Shown piece after piece: positions 708-32,062 of a DNA stretch of 39,603 bases (position 1 is the first letter of the stretch; each line of letters begins with the position of its first letter). Under the pieces are notes generated by a model that was given only the letters and a program-made list of their open reading frames with translations, searched no databases and was not told where the DNA came from. Source of the DNA: Candidatus Kapaibacterium sp. (GTDB lineage: Bacteria; Bacteroidota; Ignavibacteria; Kapaibacteriales; UBA4661); the NCBI GenBank assembly GCA_025455065.1, contig JALONG010000056.1, positions 1 to 39,603 on the forward strand. The letters are read 5' to 3'. The translations under genes and the position numbers were made by a program.

Positions 708-1640
708 ATGCAAGTAACGAATACCGTTTTGATGATAGCGCCCGTGCGCTTTGGTTTCAATCCTGACGCAGCAGATACAAACTCCTTTATGGAAAGCGAC
801 AGTGGGCTTTCCCGGGAAGAGCGCGAAAAGATACAACTCGCTGCAAGAGAAGAATTTATGAACTTTGCCGAGACATTGCGTGGGGCGGGAATAACGGTAG
901 AAATCGTCGAGGACACGCCGGAGCCGCACACGCCGGATTCGATTTTCCCGAATAATTGGATTTCTTTCCACTCGGACAGGCGCATCGTGCTTTATCCGAT
1001 GGAGCCGGAAAACCGCCGTTTGGAGCGCCGTGCAGACATTGTTATCCGCATGGCAAACACCTTCGGATTTGAACAAACAGAGGATTTGTCGGGTTTTGAG
1101 GACACGGGTGTATTTTTGGAAGGCACAGGTAGCCTTGTTCTTGACCGCGTAAATAAGATTGCCTACGCGAACCGCTCTTCGCGGATGCACTCCGAAGCGC
1201 TTCGGGACTTCGCTCGGCGTATGGGCTATACAGCGATTGAGTTTTCATCGCGGCGCAAAGACGGCGGACAAATTTACCATACCAACGTGATCATGGCTGT
1301 CGGCGAGGGTGCTGCGGTGATTTGCAGCGAAGTCCTTCCCGACGAAAAAGAACGTGCATTGGTGCTGGATTCTCTCCGAAAACACCAAGGGACGGTTATT
1401 GAGATTACGGAAGCACAAATGAATGAATTTGCAGGAAATATGCTGCATTTGCGCACAAAGGACGGCAACAAAGTTTGGGTGATGTCCTCACGCGCTTATC
1501 AAGCCCTTTTACCGGAACAAAAAGCCGCATTGGAGCGGGATTCGACGCTTCTTCATGCGCCGTTGGATGTGATTGAGCGCTACGGCGGCGGCTCTGCGCG
1601 GTGTATGCTGGCAGAGATTTTTGTTCCTGAAAAAGTTTAG
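708..1640 (+). CDS. ctlX: Citrulline hydrolase CtlX-like (amidinotransferase superfamily)
   Basis: A 310-residue protein of the guanidino-group-modifying (arginine deiminase/amidinotransferase) superfamily. Visible family motifs are FPNNW (80-84), LEGTGSLVLDR (138-148), the catalytic His in GGQIYHTNV (H191) and the catalytic Cys in GGSARCML (C299). The length and the N-terminal TNTVLMIAPVRFGFN motif fit the CtlX subfamily, known in Francisella as a citrulline ureidase (citrulline to ornithine, CO2 and ammonia). An arginine deiminase gene follows 54 bp downstream, so the pair could convert arginine to citrulline to ornithine in the cytoplasm. The start is an ATG with no strong Shine-Dalgarno, behind a TAnnTTTG promoter. 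The superfamily is secure; the citrulline specificity rests on resemblance and neighbourhood. An arginine or dimethylarginine hydrolase is the alternative. Confidence 0.85.
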   Translation: MQVTNTVLMIAPVRFGFNPDAADTNSFMESDSGLSREEREKIQLAAREEFMNFAETLRGAGITVEIVEDTPEPHTPDSIFPNNWISFHSDRRIVLYPMEPENRRLERRADIVIRMANTFGFEQTEDLSGFEDTGVFLEGTGSLVLDRVNKIAYANRSSRMHSEALRDFARRMGYTAIEFSSRRKDGGQIYHTNVIMAVGEGAAVICSEVLPDEKERALVLDSLRKHQGTVIEITEAQMNEFAGNMLHLRTKDGNKVWVMSSRAYQALLPEQKAALERDSTLLHAPLDVIERYGGGSARCMLAEIFVPEKV

Positions 1641-1694
1641 CGGTATTTTTGTACAGGATTTTTGAAACACATTGCACACTATATTTTCCAGTCC

Positions 1695-2903
1695 ATGCCC
1701 ACAACCCAACGCCTCAACGTTACATCCGAATACGGCTTGCTCAAAACCGTGATTATGCACCGCCCCAGTGCGGAGATTGACCGCCTTTTGCCGGATAATT
1801 ACCGTACATACTTGTTCGAGGATATTCCGTATTTGAAAAAAATTCAAAAGGAGCATGACCTTTTTGCTGACCTCATTCGCTCCAAAGGCGCAGAAACACT
1901 GTATATGGAGGTGCTTTTGGAAGAAACGCTCCGTGATGAAGCCGCACGGTACGACACCTTGGAGGCAGTTGTGGCGTTGGAGCGCTGCGAAAGCATTATG
2001 AATGACCTCATGCAGATTTCCACGCCGGAGCTTGCAACGATGCTGCTTGCAGGACTTCGTGCCAATGAAGCACGAGAGCGTGGCTTCAAGGTGAGCCAGT
2101 ATCTGCCGGATGACTGGATGATGATTTCGCCTGTGCCGAATGCGTACTTTATGCGTGACCCGGCAGCGATTGTGGGCAACAGCATCATTTCATCGAATAT
2201 GTTTTATCCCGCCAGAGTGCGCGAATCCTTGCTGATTGAGAATATTTTCCGTTTTCACCCGCGCTTTTTGAAATCCGATGCTTTCGCCTACGGAACGCAA
2301 AACGATGAGCGGTACAGCTCCGTAGAAGGCGGCGATATTATCGTTTTGAATAAAGAATCCATCGCTGTCGGGTGCAGCGAGCGCACCAGCACCGAAGCTA
2401 TTGCGCGAATGGCATCGAATCTTTTCCGCAGAGGCTCCATCAAGCGCGTGTATGAAGTGCTTGTGCCGCCGAAGCGAGAATATATGCACCTCGACACGGT
2501 TTTCACGATTATCGCTCCGCAAACCATCTGCGCTCACAAACGCAGTTTTATGGAATCCCCGCAAACACGTCTGTACGAAGCAGCCGGCAACGAAAAAGGC
2601 TACAAACTGCACACCGAAGGGCGCACGTTTATGGACGTTTTGCGCGATGAATTTGGTGCACTGACCATCATCGAAGTTGCCGGAGGTGATAAATACTATG
2701 CTGACCGCGAACAGCGTACCGACGGCGCGAATGTCTTCACCATAGCGCCGGGCGTGGTTGTGGGTTACGACCGCAATCAACGTACCAATGCGGCGTTGCG
2801 TGATGCCGGTGTGGAAGTGCTGGATTTCGACGGCTCGGAACTCGTGCGCGGCTTAGGCGGAGCGCGGTGTATGACGATGCCGATTGAGCGTGAGGATGTG
2901 TAA
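1695..2903 (+). CDS. arcA: Arginine deiminase
   Basis: Hydrolyses arginine to citrulline and ammonia. The 402-residue protein has the usual bacterial ADI length. It shows the N-terminal SEYGLLKTVIMHRP motif, the substrate-loop FMRDPAAIVG, the active-site region EYMHLDTVFTI, and the C-terminal GLGGARCMTMPIERED with catalytic Cys392. The frame is open upstream to a TTG at 1662, but the ATG at 1695 gives the family's normal N terminus and was chosen. No carbamoyltransferase or carbamate kinase follows, so this is not a standard arcABC pathway here. The upstream ctlX-like gene probably consumes the citrulline. Confidence 0.93.
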   Translation: MPTTQRLNVTSEYGLLKTVIMHRPSAEIDRLLPDNYRTYLFEDIPYLKKIQKEHDLFADLIRSKGAETLYMEVLLEETLRDEAARYDTLEAVVALERCESIMNDLMQISTPELATMLLAGLRANEARERGFKVSQYLPDDWMMISPVPNAYFMRDPAAIVGNSIISSNMFYPARVRESLLIENIFRFHPRFLKSDAFAYGTQNDERYSSVEGGDIIVLNKESIAVGCSERTSTEAIARMASNLFRRGSIKRVYEVLVPPKREYMHLDTVFTIIAPQTICAHKRSFMESPQTRLYEAAGNEKGYKLHTEGRTFMDVLRDEFGALTIIEVAGGDKYYADREQRTDGANVFTIAPGVVVGYDRNQRTNAALRDAGVEVLDFDGSELVRGLGGARCMTMPIEREDV

Positions 2904-2948
2904 AGCAAGTAATCTTTCTCAAATAATGTTGAATCATCGGAGGCAATC

Positions 2949-3335
2949 ATGGCAGAGCTACGAGTATCATTTCGTGCACAGCAGGCATTAAATATGCTTG
3001 CCCCGAACGAGCGTACGCGATTACAAAAAGAGGTTGAAAAGTTTCTCAAAAGCCGCCGTTCCAAATCTTCAAAAACCAAGAGTTTTCTCGGCAATGAAAA
3101 GACTCGCATTGTCGAAACACAAGGTTTTTACTTGTTCTTTGATATTAGTTCAAATCAAGGTGAAAAAGCCCCAGAATTGGCGGACATTATTGCTACCGAT
3201 AATATCTTGATTACAGCGACTAAAGCACAATTCGAGGCTATAGAAAAGAGTACATCAACGAAACAATCGAAACCGCAAACAGCAACAAAAAAAGCAGCTA
3301 AAGTACCGAAAAAAGCTACTTCGGCGAAGCATTAA
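2949..3335 (+). CDS. Small basic protein, possible RelE/ParE-like fold
   Basis: A 128-residue protein with a good ribosome binding site (GGAGG at 2939-2943). The first 95 residues alternate helix and strand in a way reminiscent of RelE/ParE toxins: FRAQQALNMLAPNERTRLQKEVEKF, then TRIVETQGFYLFFDI, then ADIIATDNI. The last 35 residues are a low-complexity Lys/Thr/Ala tail that could bind nucleic acid. No family is recognised with certainty. Its stop is 5 bp from the start of the DUF4263 gene, so the two are probably co-transcribed. The base composition of the pair is lower in GC than that of arcA to its left. A toxin role is inference only. Confidence 0.6.
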   Translation: MAELRVSFRAQQALNMLAPNERTRLQKEVEKFLKSRRSKSSKTKSFLGNEKTRIVETQGFYLFFDISSNQGEKAPELADIIATDNILITATKAQFEAIEKSTSTKQSKPQTATKKAAKVPKKATSAKH

Positions 3336-3340
3336 GAAGA

Positions 3341-4003
3341 ATGTTTTTCTCTCACAATCTTCCATTCAAAGCAATGCTCAACGATTTAGTTTTTGATATT
3401 AGCGAATGTGCCAAAGAAGTCAAGGAGTTTGGCAAATTACTGAAAGGAAAGACGGCATTGAAAGAACGCACTGACATTCTTAAATTTTTTCGGCGCCATC
3501 AACATATTTCGGCTTTTATTGCCCTTTACGATACTCATATCACTAAATACAATAAAATCAAGCATGAGTATAATGTTGCCGGTAAATTTCAGGCGGACTT
3601 GATTGTTGGTGATTCGACGAAGCACGCTTATTGTCTAATTGAATTCGAGGAAGGTGCGCCTGGCAGTATTTTCAAAAAAAAGAGTGTTACACGGTCATTT
3701 CCTGAGTGGTCAGGGCGATTTGAGCATGGATACAGCCAAATCATTGACTGGTTCTGGTGTTTAGACGATATAAAAAAAACGACAATGTTGGAGGAAGATT
3801 TTGGGCATGGTGATTTTTCGGTACATGGCATTTTGGTCATCGGGCGTTCCGTCAATTTGTCAGATACTGACCGTCGGCGCTTACTCTGGCGGAGTAATAA
3901 AGTTGTCATTGATTCGCATATTATCACGTGTTTGACATATGATATGCTATACGAAGATATGTCCGCCAAACTTGAGCAAGTAAAAGGAATGTGGAGGCTA
4001 TAA
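3341..4003 (+). CDS. DUF4263 / Shedu (SduA)-like protein
   Basis: A 220-residue protein carrying the DUF4263 pattern: FQADLIVGD (83-91), YCLIEFEEG (97-105), then RFEHGYSQIIDWFWCLDDIKK. DUF4263 is the PD-(D/E)xK nuclease-like domain of the Shedu anti-phage protein SduA. Here D86 and E101 are kept, but the usual Lys two residues after the Glu is replaced by Glu (E103), so nuclease activity is uncertain. It is shorter than the Shedu proteins described first, with only about 80 residues before the domain. The next gene's ATG overlaps its TAA (TAATG at 4001-4005), suggesting translational coupling. An alternative start is M12 at 3374. The stretch is about 35-40% GC against about 50% in neighbours, consistent with acquisition. 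Confidence 0.7.
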   Translation: MFFSHNLPFKAMLNDLVFDISECAKEVKEFGKLLKGKTALKERTDILKFFRRHQHISAFIALYDTHITKYNKIKHEYNVAGKFQADLIVGDSTKHAYCLIEFEEGAPGSIFKKKSVTRSFPEWSGRFEHGYSQIIDWFWCLDDIKKTTMLEEDFGHGDFSVHGILVIGRSVNLSDTDRRRLLWRSNKVVIDSHIITCLTYDMLYEDMSAKLEQVKGMWRL

Positions 4004-4995
4004 TGACCCCCCAATTCTCCGTTCTCATCTGCGGTGCAGGCAATATCGCGCACCGCTTCGACACGCCCGAAGGCGAGGAAATTTTCACGCACACGAAAGG
4101 TTTTATGCGGCATGGCGGCTTTCGCGTGGCGGCAATTATTGATGAACAAATTGAACGCGCCCGCGAAGCTGCCGAGATATGGAACATTCCACACTATGGA
4201 AAGCGTTTAGAGGATGTGAGCGACCACTTGTTTGATGTGATAAGCATTTGTACGCCGGATGCCACACACAACCAGTATCTCCGCGCTGCGCTCGCACTCG
4301 AACCGAAACTAGTCTTTTGTGAAAAACCCCTCAGCGCAAGCGATGATGAGGCTTCTGCACTGGTAGATTTGTATCGTTATGCCGATATTCACCTTGCCGT
4401 AAATTATTCGCGGCGCTGGCTTTCGGATTTTCAAGAACTCAGCAAACAAGCACTTTCCGGCGCATTTGGCAAGCTCATTTCGGCGCGGATAAAGTATTAC
4501 AAAGGCTTTCTGCACAATGCCTCGCACTTTGTGGATTTGCTACAAATGCTGACAGAACCTCGCTTGCAGGTGGGTGCAATCAGCCATTCGATAGCAGATT
4601 TTTCGGAAGACGACTTAACGATTTCCGGCACAGCCCGCATGGAATCAGCGATTGCAGACGGAAGCAGTTTCCCGTTTATGTTCGAGGGTTATGATTCACG
4701 CCTGATGTCGCCGATTGAGTTGGAGGTGATATTTGAAAATACGGCTATCAAGCTCGAAGAACTGAACGGCTCGTATTTGACGGTAGCAAAACTCCGTGAA
4801 AACGAGACCTACCCGGGTTTTTACGAGTTTTCAGACCGCACCACAACGTGCGTGAGTGCATCGTTAGCGATGCAATCAGCTGTGGGCGCTATTTACAACA
4901 CCCTTGCACAAGGCACAATGCTCGCCAGCACAGGTCAAACAGCTCTTGAAACCTTGCGTCTTTGCAAACGTATGAGTTCTTTTCCTACGATTTAA
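4003..4995 (+). CDS. Gfo/Idh/MocA family oxidoreductase
   Basis: A 330-residue NAD(P)-dependent sugar or cyclitol dehydrogenase-like protein. The N-terminal Rossmann motif is VLICGAGNIAHRF, the family's EKP motif appears as VFCEKPLS, and HNASHFVDLL is in the position of the catalytic Asp/His segment. The ATG at 4003 was chosen over an in-frame GTG at 3991 because GGAGG (3993-3997) lies just upstream. The start overlaps the DUF4263 stop. A DegT-type aminotransferase follows 350 bp later on the same strand. Such oxidoreductase/aminotransferase pairs make amino sugars or aminocyclitols, so this may be its pathway. The substrate cannot be told from sequence. Confidence 0.85.
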   Translation: MTPQFSVLICGAGNIAHRFDTPEGEEIFTHTKGFMRHGGFRVAAIIDEQIERAREAAEIWNIPHYGKRLEDVSDHLFDVISICTPDATHNQYLRAALALEPKLVFCEKPLSASDDEASALVDLYRYADIHLAVNYSRRWLSDFQELSKQALSGAFGKLISARIKYYKGFLHNASHFVDLLQMLTEPRLQVGAISHSIADFSEDDLTISGTARMESAIADGSSFPFMFEGYDSRLMSPIELEVIFENTAIKLEELNGSYLTVAKLRENETYPGFYEFSDRTTTCVSASLAMQSAVGAIYNTLAQGTMLASTGQTALETLRLCKRMSSFPTI

Positions 4996-5345: not shown

Positions 5346-6677
5346 ATGTCTGCGACAATCGCAATCAAAAGTAAACTCGCCATTCATGGCGGCACACCTA
5401 TTCGCACACAGCTTTTTCCGGCGTATAACACCATTACCGACGCAGAAAAAAAAGCTGCTATGGAAGTGCTGGATTCCGGCAATCTCTCACAGTTTCTGGG
5501 CTGCTGGATGGATGATTTTTTCGGCGGTCCGAAAGTGCGCGAGTTTGAAGAAAAATGGTCAAAAATGTTTAACGCCAAGCATACTGTCAGTGTGAACTCT
5601 AACACAAGCGGCTTATTTGCTGCCGTTGGCGCGGCTGGCGTGGGTCCGGGTGATGAAATTATCGTTTCGCCTTACACCATGAGCGCGTCGGCGATTTGTG
5701 CGTTGGTTTACGGCGCTGTACCAATTTTTGCCGATATTAACCCCGACACCTTCACGCTTGACCCCAAAAGCATTGCAGAGCGCATCACACCTCGCACAAA
5801 AGCGATTATGGTGGTGCATATTTTCGGTCATGCGGCGGACATGGACCCGATTATGGAACTTGCGCGGAAGCACAATTTGGTGGTGATTGAAGATTGCGCA
5901 CAAGCACCGCTCACCACCTACAAAGGGCGCATGGTTGGGACGATTGGCGATATGGGCGTGTTTAGTTTGAACTATCATAAGCACATCCACACTGGCGAAG
6001 GCGGTATGGTCACAACCAATAGCGATACCTATGCCGAAAAACTACAACTTATCCGTAACCACGCTGAAACCTCGCTGAAAGACAAAGGCGTAACGGATTT
6101 TACTAACATGATTGGTTTTAATTATCGCCTGACCGAGATGCAGTGCGCTATCGGCAGCACCCAATTAGACCGCTTGGAAAGCTATGTTGCAGAGCGCATA
6201 GAAAATTGTCATTACATCGCATCAAAACTGTCACTAATCCCCGGCATCACGCCGCCTGTGGAGCGCGAGAGCCGTCATGTGTATTATCAGCAAGCCTTTA
6301 AGTTTGATGCCGACATTATTGGCGTTCACCGCAACGCCTTTATTCAAGCGGTGCAGGCTGAACTTCCTTCGGCGCATCTGCGTGAATCAACGGGTAGTTT
6401 GCTGGGCTATGGTTACGTTGAACCGTTATATCTGCAGCCGATGTATCAAACTATGTCCGGCACAAAATGTTCTTTCAACTGTCCACGCTACGACGGCAAG
6501 CCAAATTATGGCAAAGGTCTCTGCCCCGTAACGGAAGATATGCACTACAACAAACTCTTCAGCCACGAATATATGCGCCCCGGACTTTCCAAAGCCGATA
6601 TGGATGATTTCATCGGTGCTTTTGAGAAAGTCTATGAGCACCGCCTCGAACTTGCTCCGAAGAATGGCAAACATTAG
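5346..6677 (+). CDS. DegT/DnrJ/EryC1/StrS family aminotransferase
   Basis: A 443-residue PLP-dependent aminotransferase of the sugar/cyclitol-modifying family. Seen are the LAIHGGTPIR opening common in this family, the NSNTSGLFAAVGAAGVGPGDEIIV segment that contacts the cofactor phosphate, IEDCAQA with D183 for the pyridine nitrogen, and K212 in HKHIHTGEGG as the Schiff-base lysine. The C-terminal part has an extra Cys-containing stretch (GTKCSFNCPRY). It probably works with the Gfo/Idh dehydrogenase upstream, which would make the keto-substrate. The start ATG has only a weak AAAGGA upstream. A terminator hairpin follows the stop. Confidence 0.9.
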   Translation: MSATIAIKSKLAIHGGTPIRTQLFPAYNTITDAEKKAAMEVLDSGNLSQFLGCWMDDFFGGPKVREFEEKWSKMFNAKHTVSVNSNTSGLFAAVGAAGVGPGDEIIVSPYTMSASAICALVYGAVPIFADINPDTFTLDPKSIAERITPRTKAIMVVHIFGHAADMDPIMELARKHNLVVIEDCAQAPLTTYKGRMVGTIGDMGVFSLNYHKHIHTGEGGMVTTNSDTYAEKLQLIRNHAETSLKDKGVTDFTNMIGFNYRLTEMQCAIGSTQLDRLESYVAERIENCHYIASKLSLIPGITPPVERESRHVYYQQAFKFDADIIGVHRNAFIQAVQAELPSAHLRESTGSLLGYGYVEPLYLQPMYQTMSGTKCSFNCPRYDGKPNYGKGLCPVTEDMHYNKLFSHEYMRPGLSKADMDDFIGAFEKVYEHRLELAPKNGKH

Positions 6678-30029: not shown

Positions 30030-32009
30030 TTAATCACGCAGTCTGCCAATATTTTTGAGAAAATCCCACTCGCTTAACCAAAGATTTGGGCTGATATTTT
30101 TCAGTACATCGGTAAAATTTTTTTCTGTGGTAAATGTGATTGAATACGGCTGAAGAACAGCATTGATAAGGTATTCAACATCATCTTTTCGCATGATTTT
30201 ATAGAATGTTTTTTCCTTTATACATTGATTTACAAAGTCTTGGTAGTGTGTTGTCAGAGCAATATCATTCAAATCAATGATTTTTTTCTTACCAAATAAT
30301 TCCTTGCAGTGATCTCGAGCCGCACGGTATCGTTGAACAGTATCATGGACATTATTATTCTCAAGTAAACGTTGAAATCGCGGGCCCAAGTCACTATATT
30401 TAGAACGTAAAACATTTTCAATGTCTTGTTTATCAGAAGAAATATCCTGGTCTTTGAGCCACAGGTGAAGAAGCATACCGGTTTTTTCAAAATCGGCACA
30501 AAGCGTTGATTCTAGCGTATATGCCTCTGTCATATACGTTGGCAGGAACGATTGTGTTAGTTCTTCTTTTATTAGCGTAGAATGTTCATCAGTAAGAAAA
30601 TCTCTATCCATTATCAGCACAGATTTTTCCCATAGCGATTTTCTATTTTTGATTTGCGAAAAAAAACGTTTATACATCGCAATTTCTCTGAACACATTAC
30701 TAATTCCATTGAGTACCCAAAAAACGTATTTTGTCGTGTTTTTGGTTAGAGATGTTCGCTGTAACAAGATATGAAGCGCTTTTGCATCATCCTCGCCTTC
30801 AACGAAAATAATACGGTCAGCTTCGATTGCATTAATAAAATCCAACCCGGTACTATCGCCCAACGAGCGAATAATCGCGTTGGTAGAAAGCGGATAAATT
30901 CCCTTAAATGATTTTTTGTCAGATGTTTTAGGGATAGGAGCAAGCTCTTTATGATTAAGGGGTCTGTAATGATTCCGAGGCGTGTGTTCCAGATGAAATA
31001 AATGCTCAGGCGACGCAGCCCGAATAAGCGATTCATTGTGTGTGGTCAGGAATACCTGATTCGTCGTCGAAAACTCCGTAATAGTGTGTAAAAGCCTTTT
31101 CTGAATATCTCTGTGAATGTGACTATCAGGTTCATCAAGAAGAATTAAGTTCATATCCGGCTCTTCGCTGTAATAGAGGCTCAGTAATATTTCAACCACT
31201 TGCAAACTACCGCTTCCTAGAAGAGCAATATCTTTCTGTGTATCATTTGTGCCTATTTGAAATTCAATGACTACTCGTGTATCGCGTTGGGCATCGCTGT
31301 TAAAATGAAATGTAATGCCTGTCTGATTGTCAAAAAGAATATCATTCAAACTCCGTAGGAAATTCGTATATAATGTCCTGTCGGTATGATGATAAATAGC
31401 ATAAAGGCGGTTACGCAAGACACTTACCGATTCACGTTTGAGTATATTTGCCTTGATAATCGGTGCCGTAGTAAAGTCTTCAATTTGCTGAATCGCCGAA
31501 ACAGGGGAAGCATATAGAATACCAATCGGATTCGGCAATTTTTTGAAAAACGCATTGAATGCTGCAAAATCGTATGTACTAAAATTCTTCAAAACGATAA
31601 CATATGTTGAGCCGGAACTTCTTATTTCAAAACTAATGTTCAACTCTTGTTTATCTTGTCGCAGTGCCGCTCCTAATACGATGGGAATCGAGGTATTTCG
31701 CTGGTAAAAAATATCGGAAAAATTGGGGCTGCGGACACTCGTAATTTGGTCAAAAGGAAAATACTTATTTTGAGTATTACCTAAAATATAATCGCCTTTT
31801 TGGTAGGATGTAGCTCTTTTTCCACTTCTGCCTACCTTTGCTCGCTGCAACAATTTTGCAAAACACTCCTGCCACAGGGCTATCGCCTCTAATACGGTTG
31901 TTTTACCAGAATTATTCGTGCCAGTAAAAATATTAATATCCGCATTAAGGTCTATTGTAACGTCTCGGAATGACTTAAAATTTTGAATATGCAGAGAATG
32001 GATATTCAT
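30030..32009 (-). CDS. OLD-family ATPase/TOPRIM nuclease
   Basis: A 659-residue protein with an N-terminal SMC/RecF-like ABC ATPase and a C-terminal TOPRIM domain. MNIHSLHIQNFKSF is followed by Walker A GTNNSGKT (30-37), a signature-like LLGSGSLQVVEILL, Walker B LILLDEPDSHIH and the switch LTTHNESLIR. The TOPRIM part has the Glu in IIFVEGEDDAKAL and DxD in LIMDRDF. OLD proteins are ATP-driven nucleases; many act in phage defence, alone (class 1) or with a UvrD helicase partner. No partner is adjacent, so this is a solitary form. It is about 37% GC against about 50% in pepA, suggesting acquisition. ATG 32009 was chosen because it gives the canonical start of the ATPase domain. Confidence 0.85.
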   Translation of the reverse strand: MNIHSLHIQNFKSFRDVTIDLNADINIFTGTNNSGKTTVLEAIALWQECFAKLLQRAKVGRSGKRATSYQKGDYILGNTQNKYFPFDQITSVRSPNFSDIFYQRNTSIPIVLGAALRQDKQELNISFEIRSSGSTYVIVLKNFSTYDFAAFNAFFKKLPNPIGILYASPVSAIQQIEDFTTAPIIKANILKRESVSVLRNRLYAIYHHTDRTLYTNFLRSLNDILFDNQTGITFHFNSDAQRDTRVVIEFQIGTNDTQKDIALLGSGSLQVVEILLSLYYSEEPDMNLILLDEPDSHIHRDIQKRLLHTITEFSTTNQVFLTTHNESLIRAASPEHLFHLEHTPRNHYRPLNHKELAPIPKTSDKKSFKGIYPLSTNAIIRSLGDSTGLDFINAIEADRIIFVEGEDDAKALHILLQRTSLTKNTTKYVFWVLNGISNVFREIAMYKRFFSQIKNRKSLWEKSVLIMDRDFLTDEHSTLIKEELTQSFLPTYMTEAYTLESTLCADFEKTGMLLHLWLKDQDISSDKQDIENVLRSKYSDLGPRFQRLLENNNVHDTVQRYRAARDHCKELFGKKKIIDLNDIALTTHYQDFVNQCIKEKTFYKIMRKDDVEYLINAVLQPYSITFTTEKNFTDVLKNISPNLWLSEWDFLKNIGRLRD

Positions 32010-32062
32010 TATAGCTGAGTATTGTTTGATTGGAAATTCATTACGCTGCAACACAATGAAAA

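Follow-up and report, generated by a model that had tools for sequence, protein, structure and literature searches.

Two small genes, here called orfA and orfB, lie between an arginine deiminase gene and an oxidoreductase gene of Candidatus Kapaibacterium sp., and the question raised by this locus is what their products are and whether they work as a unit. The window, i.e., the whole stretch of DNA that was analysed, comprises 39,603 nucleotides (contig JALONG010000056.1) of a genome of 5.6 Mb in 131 contigs. An initial annotation had proposed an uncharacterised two-gene defence or toxin-antitoxin module, consisting of a RelE-like protein and a degenerate Shedu-like protein with a DUF4263 domain, inserted in front of a metabolic gene.

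Layout and Base Composition of the Locus

The features around the two genes are as follows:

708-1640, forward strand: gene for a DDAH-type protein (Pfam and sequence annotation of the window)
1662-2903, forward strand: arginine deiminase (ADI) gene, its stop ending at 2903
2904-2948, forward strand: left junction, a 45-bp spacer between the ADI gene and orfA, with GGAGG at 2939-2943 (sequence)
2949-3335, forward strand: orfA, 128 aa, partner with a predicted RelE/ParE fold, the core of which spans about residues 1-90; a Lys-rich tail of low confidence occupies about residues 104-128
3341-4003, forward strand: orfB, 220 aa, short SduA (DUF4263/PF14082) nuclease core with D86, E101-F-E103, and Q133
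3374-4003, forward strand: orfB from its probable true start, ATG 3374, 209 aa
4001-4005, forward strand: TAATG, overlap of the orfB stop and the oxidoreductase start (sequence)
4003-4995, forward strand: Gfo/Idh/MocA oxidoreductase gene (PF01408, 6.7e-18), the host gene behind the cassette
5346-6677, forward strand: DegT-type aminotransferase gene (window annotation)

The pair is lower in GC than its flanks, as had been noticed initially: orfA and orfB stand at 0.403 and 0.398, whereas the two preceding genes have 0.512 and 0.519 and the two following ones 0.495 and 0.489, and GC as low as the cassette's is found in 8% of the 1055-bp windows of this contig. The overlap described between orfB and the next gene is also real, the oxidoreductase ATG at 4003 sharing one base with the orfB TAA at 4001-4003. 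Control of the oxidoreductase start by the cassette, as supposed in the initial annotation, is hypothetical; the ATG of that gene is preceded by a separate GGAGG. The 5-bp spacing given for the two cassette genes holds if orfB starts at 3341, but with the likelier start at ATG 3374 the gap becomes 38 bp. The later start is preferred because the nuclease of a sister species starts at the position of window residue M12 (34-bp gap to its partner), because Met occupies this position in 52 of 58 aligned nucleases (a partly circular count, as the script chose the ATG nearest the match), and because residues 1-10 of orfB were poorly predicted by AlphaFold2. A 9-bp direct repeat, AGCAAGTAA, is present at 2904-2912 in the left junction and at 3975-3983 inside the 3′ end of orfB; it may be due to chance or may be an insertion scar.

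The Locus in Related Genomes

Two relatives from the same genus (G007 and G003) have the oxidoreductase homologue immediately behind the ADI homologue, and the cassette would not fit between them. In a sister species of the same genus (G001), diverged copies of orfA and orfB, both open, are directly upstream of the same oxidoreductase; identity to the window is 27-31% for the partner (E 3.3e-6), 41-42% for the nuclease, and 72% for the oxidoreductase, and the contig ends shortly upstream of the cassette copies. Two further relatives (G004 and G002) have a different gene upstream of the oxidoreductase, presumably endonuclease III-like by its look. Overall, the nuclease was found in two of 61 genomes searched across the genus, family, and order, the window's own genome included. 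Insertion in front of a metabolic gene is the natural reading and fits the adjacency of the ADI and oxidoreductase genes in two relatives, although ancestral presence followed by loss in those relatives is also conceivable.

G004 also carries an ordinary YoeB toxin gene (L010, 3246-3512, reverse strand; PF06769, 2.5e-30), located upstream of this oxidoreductase at a distance of about 750 bases.

The Second Gene Encodes a Predicted Shedu Nuclease Core

orfB carries the SduA_C domain (PF14082, 1.5e-23; 84.1 bits, cut-off 27) and matches the PADLOC SduA model PDLC00379 at 4.6e-75, a model matched by all 46 nucleases of alignment A6. The AlphaFold2 model of orfB, made from 46 sequences, has a mean pLDDT of 93.4 and shows the PD-(D/E)xK-type fold of the solved Shedu structures. 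It aligns with residues 203-408 of E. coli SduA at Z 13.6 (8ps4_A, rmsd 3.6, 182 residues aligned) and with the nuclease domain of B. cereus Shedu at Z 13.3 (8ti9_B, rmsd 3.8, 177 residues aligned). Because these are the best matches, followed by nicking and restriction enzymes at Z of about 8, orfB is, as modelled, a Shedu core without the N-terminal half. PDB profile searches by sequence with the nuclease returned no Shedu entry; the fold search did find Shedu. Type I Shedu is described as combining the nuclease and an N-terminal regulatory domain in one protein (PMC12137116; PMC12409362), and reviews present Shedu as a single-protein system in which this N-terminal domain presumably determines what is sensed (PMC12409362; PMC12904381). 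With only 209-220 aa, orfB has no such fused N-terminal regulatory domain.

The initial annotation had correctly read E-F-E (E101-F102-E103) in orfB where E-x-K would be expected, and had taken the nuclease to be degenerate. The second point does not stand. In all 58 aligned nucleases, the window's among them, E42, F50, D86, E101, F102, E103, S109, F111, Q133, G168, and R180 are invariant, and E-F-E, being shared by 58/58, is a constant of the branch rather than a sign of decay. The E-x-K active-site motif is absent from orfB, and these proteins are therefore classed as a branch of PF14082 with E-x-E rather than as typical Shedu nucleases. E-x-E sites occur in active PD-(D/E)xK enzymes, for example BamHI.

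Other PF14082 genes of the phylum served as controls. A search of 296 genomes found the domain in 25, at 30 loci. The 29 loci other than the window's, mostly long, gave no partner match within 1.5-kb flanks, which barely reach the upstream gene of the longest controls (L117, L118, L123) and are cut by contig ends at L115 and L117. Read by pattern and by eye in unaligned sequences, 25 of these controls have E-x-K, three have E-x-E (L112, L113, L114), and one is unreadable (L101). The three are short DUF4263 proteins (L112, 1378-2055; L114, 1237-2049; L113) with E-x-E and no RelE-type partner match; E-x-E is therefore not tied to the partner, and these loci are possibly further stand-alone or differently partnered branches.

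The First Gene Encodes a Protein with a Predicted RelE/ParE Fold

For orfA itself no significant Pfam match was found, and NCBIfam and PADLOC models gave no useful match to the partner. At the level of the family, matches with E up to 0.1 were obtained to the PHROG ‘RelE-like toxin’ for 25 of 53 partners (best 9.4e-7) and to ParE_toxin for 14 of 53 (best 3.1e-4), and the partner family profile searched against the PDB finds an archaeal RelE (1wmi, 6.2e-6) and YoeB (2e-4). The AlphaFold2 model of orfA has a mean pLDDT of 75.1, with block means of 90-96 for residues 1-30 and 71-90 for residues 31-90. Its best Foldseek match was E. coli RelE (E 4.6e-3, with nothing at 0.001 or better), while VIA-align gave Z 11.3 to M. 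tuberculosis RelE1 (9g12_B, rmsd 2.2, 82 residues aligned) and Z of at least 8 for 71 of 771 aligned chains. Judged by title, nearly all of the best 50 rows are toxin or toxin-antitoxin entries (RelE, ParE, YoeB, YafQ, HigB). The predicted model thus has the RelE/ParE (BECR) fold, which bears out the RelE-like features ascribed to the small protein at the outset; the Lys-rich tail described there is likewise real, and is found in the window partner and its sister copy. Known Shedu N-terminal domains are not among the matches listed for the orfA model, which has no bearing either way.

The window partner is a weak member of its family (HMM E 0.02; 8-29% identity to the other 52 sequences in alignment A7). 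It is placed mainly by its predicted fold and by its sister homologue, a weakness that counts against the split-Shedu reading given below.

Despite the fold, the partners lack the R-x-G-[DN]-Y-R-type motif of the RelE/ParE toxin family. The motif is present in none of 53 partners and in all nine ordinary, unpaired RelE relatives from the 30 whole genomes described below (8/8 without L200, whose frame was chosen by a pattern containing YR; L193, L201, and L202 were left out of the comparison). [GA][HK]R near the C-terminus occurs in one of 53 partners and in six of the nine relatives. The partners have a signature of their own, of the D-I-V-x-x-x-R-L type, which 36 of 53 carry and none of the nine relatives does. 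Column 61 of the partners, which aligns by eye with RelE R61, holds Arg in 45/53 partners and Tyr in the window partner; column 53 holds Tyr or Phe in 49/53 and Arg in the window partner. An ordinary RelE toxin was rejected as a reading on account of the lack of the canonical motif in the 53 partners and the Tyr in the window's R61-type column.

The Two Genes Occur Together Across Bacteria

Loci were collected from named genomes (63), viral contigs (5), and plasmids and a phage; the five viral loci came from an alignment scan, a single-protein scan of these contigs having been unproductive. Short SduA genes were the starting point for these loci and for the 30 whole genomes alike, and the partner HMM was trained on the neighbours of such genes at 24 loci. 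In the resulting set of 73, from which the duplicates L025, L027, and L074 were removed, the partner HMM matches upstream on the same strand at 69 loci, and at 45 of the 49 outside training. The weakest matches counted are those of the window (E 0.02), L084 (4e-4), and L023 (1e-3, over two frames), and at L061 the best match is downstream and the second-best directly upstream. Among the four loci without a match, L020 has an overlapping small upstream ORF that the HMM does not recognise, and L040, L088, and L089 have incomplete nuclease frames. When only full-length nucleases are considered, a RelE-like partner is directly upstream at 58 of 59 loci (35 of 36 outside HMM training).

The 30 whole genomes contain 40 PF14082 matches, of which 38 have a partner 93-193 bases upstream (domain to domain); the paired matches are in frames of at most 345 aa, and the two unpaired ones in frames of 434 and 419 aa. 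The same genomes contain 62 partner-type matches (E up to 1e-4), 24 of them without an adjoining PF14082 match. Twelve of these 24 were examined: nine are ordinary RelE-type genes, L193 adjoins the first part of an SduA gene that is cut off there, L201 is downstream of a paired module, and L202 has an in-frame stop. Co-occurrence of the homologues, a check suggested with the initial annotation, is thus found both across loci and within whole genomes, and chance neighbourhood was ruled out by the 58/59 and 38/40 pairing set against 0/29 in the controls.

The two genes are inherited together and probably made together, a view based on their overlapping codons and correlated divergence. Stop and start overlap by four bases in 24 and by one base in one of 56 scored pairs, with starts picked by a script. 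Partner and nuclease distances correlate at r 0.82 over 45 loci, the highest of 2000 permutations reaching 0.23; since many of the loci are close cyanobacterial relatives, both r and the counts are inflated. The partner is the more variable of the two (mean identity 0.23 vs. 0.43 for the nuclease). Going by record titles, the branch presumably spans some nine or ten phylum-level bacterial groups.

Disruption is unevenly distributed. A full-length partner is located beside an incomplete nuclease at nine loci (L036, L038, L051, L054, L072, L086, L090, L092, L093), seven of which have an internal stop, frameshift, or deletion, L072 and L086 merely ending early; several of these contigs are draft metagenomes, where assembly errors are possible. 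The reverse case, a frameshifted partner with an intact nuclease, was seen at one locus (L023).

Some cyanobacteria and planctomycetes have longer proteins in which the RelE-like part forms the C-terminal domain. In two cyanobacterial examples (L046, 1760-3004; L047, 1799-3004), the N-terminal domain is REase_AHJR-like (PF18743) and adds a second nuclease-type domain to the operon. A second RelE-like fusion protein was found downstream of the paired module in a Gemmataceae locus (L061, 4605-5417), with no adjoining SduA found.

The pair is also present on 13 plasmid records, eight of them predicted conjugative, and in two Vibrio phage records. In the plasmid records opened, the nuclease was named and the partner was not; a depositor of the Vibrio phage labelled the two neighbours ‘RelE-like’ and ‘Shedu__SduA’. 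Matches to plasmid and phage records are at only 32-42% protein identity, and no DNA match was found in E. coli genomes; on these grounds, known plasmids, phages, and E. coli were rejected as recent donors. In Vibrio phage PQ189353 (L024, 3705-6943), the RelE-like and SduA genes adjoin a GajB/UvrD-like helicase gene, and the three are situated between replication and lysis genes in what looks like a phage-borne defence slot.

A Probable Split Shedu and Its Alternatives

The nuclease comes without the sensing and restraining part ascribed to other Shedu proteins, and the protein of the preceding gene without its toxin motif. Read most simply, this is a split (two-subunit) Shedu, in which a stand-alone nuclease core is served in trans by an upstream, diverged RelE-fold partner as regulatory or sensing subunit. 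We consider this reading probable, with appreciable room for error. A wider proposal is more tentative and slightly less likely than not: that the pair represents a widespread, hitherto undescribed two-component Shedu branch, in which an E-x-E DNA nuclease has taken on a RelE fold, minus its toxin motif, as the subunit for sensing and control. The RelE-fold partner would take the place of the Shedu N-terminal regulatory or sensing domain, bind the nuclease, and hold it inactive as long as the cell is healthy; it may sense, restrain, or do both. On the appearance of phage DNA or some other sign of phage, the partner would activate the nuclease or bring it to its target, and the nuclease would cleave phage DNA with its PD-(D/E)xE site. 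In the two Kapabacteria-type partner copies, the Lys-rich tail may add DNA binding. We infer binding, cleavage, and phage defence by the pair, and its presence on plasmids and in Vibrio phages fits a defence role. The partner may be dispensable for the nuclease, as L023 keeps an intact nuclease beside a frameshifted partner.

Of the module first proposed, two genes with RelE-like and Shedu-like folds have held up, both folds having been obtained by predicting each protein singly. Its toxin-antitoxin side, in the ordinary sense, is disfavoured because of the contrast in the RelE motif (0/53 vs. 9/9) and the incomplete nucleases beside intact partners. In a classical arrangement, the RelE-like protein would be a toxin that cleaves mRNA, with the nuclease-like protein as antitoxin, as the predicted fold of orfA and the PHROG (25/53) and ParE_toxin (14/53) matches might suggest. 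However, no partner has the motif present in every ordinary relative, the presumed R61-type column is Arg in 45/53 but Tyr in the window, and an antitoxin would need no invariant nuclease residues. The nine full-length partners beside incomplete nucleases, against one reverse case, also argue against the partner as a toxin held by the nuclease. No gene for a cognate DNA-binding antitoxin adjoins orfA, whose neighbours are the Shedu-type nuclease core and arginine deiminase. Together, this makes the classical arrangement very improbable. Hardly better placed is the idea that one operon supplies two proteins active against phage, with the RelE-fold protein as RNase and SduA as DNase. Each predicted fold is that of a nuclease and most partners keep Arg in the R61-type column (45/53), but the lack of the canonical motif in 53/53 partners makes this highly improbable too.

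The same 9 vs. 1 bias in disruption is what would be expected if the nuclease were the dangerous part, that is, if the toxin-antitoxin relationship were inverted: the free nuclease would be the toxin, the RelE-fold protein its dedicated inhibitor, and the purpose addiction, not phage sensing. A partner gene that comes first, reading frames that often overlap, and carriage on plasmids and phages are consistent with such a system. However, at L023 an intact nuclease persists with a frameshifted partner, fusions of the partner to other domains suggest a role beyond inhibition, and a member of the nuclease family, VcSduA, is reported to protect against phages (PMC12137116). We regard the inverted arrangement as unlikely, though it is the strongest competitor of the split Shedu. 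Finally, the cassette could be decaying or domesticated and functionless in this genome, and the window partner is indeed atypical (Arg at column 53, Tyr at column 61). But both frames are open in the window and in the sister species, at 27-31 and 41-42% identity, and the window nuclease retains every invariant residue; loss of function is the most remote of these alternatives.

Relation to Known Systems

Shedu (SduA) of E. coli and B. cereus (8ps4/8ps5, 8ti8/8ti9) shares the nuclease-domain fold, PF14082, and the PADLOC SduA match with orfB, which differs in having no fused N-terminal regulatory domain, E-x-E rather than E-x-K, and a small partner gene upstream. orfA resembles the RelE/ParE superfamily toxins (PF05016, PF06769, and others) in its predicted fold, from residue 1 to about residue 90 (Z up to 11.3), but its family has its own D-I-V-x-x-x-R-L-type signature instead of the R-x-G-[DN]-Y-R-type motif, and its neighbour is a nuclease rather than a DNA-binding antitoxin. 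The proposed defence operon ptuXYZ, one protein of which has a BECR fold, likewise places a RelE-superfamily protein in a nuclease-containing, defence-like operon, but it has three genes, including those for a DUF262 protein and a PtuA-like ATPase, and no DUF4263 nuclease is named in the parts of its description covered here (PMC11980606). A review describes Shedu types I and II as single-protein systems (PMC12409362).

Among the literature matches listed, covering titles and the beginnings of abstracts, there is no report of the pair, whose novelty relative to type II Shedu is provisional. Gu et al. 2025 and Loeff et al. 2025 are said to be the two main Shedu papers, and the former reportedly defines type II. 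If the split-Shedu reading is true, the sensing and cutting of Shedu become separable for study, a toxin fold has taken on a regulatory role, and the sensor of Shedu, otherwise an interchangeable N-terminal domain, also occurs as a protein of its own. Annotation that names the SduA gene alone, as in the plasmid records, would then miss half of the system.

Elsewhere in the window, a large AAA ATPase gene (AAA_21/AAA_15; 30030-32054, reverse strand) lies in a second low-GC stretch at about 29.8-32.3 kb. Its best PADLOC matches are NsnB, mad3, AbiLi, AriA, and GajA (1e-18 to 1e-20), making it a possible further defence gene.
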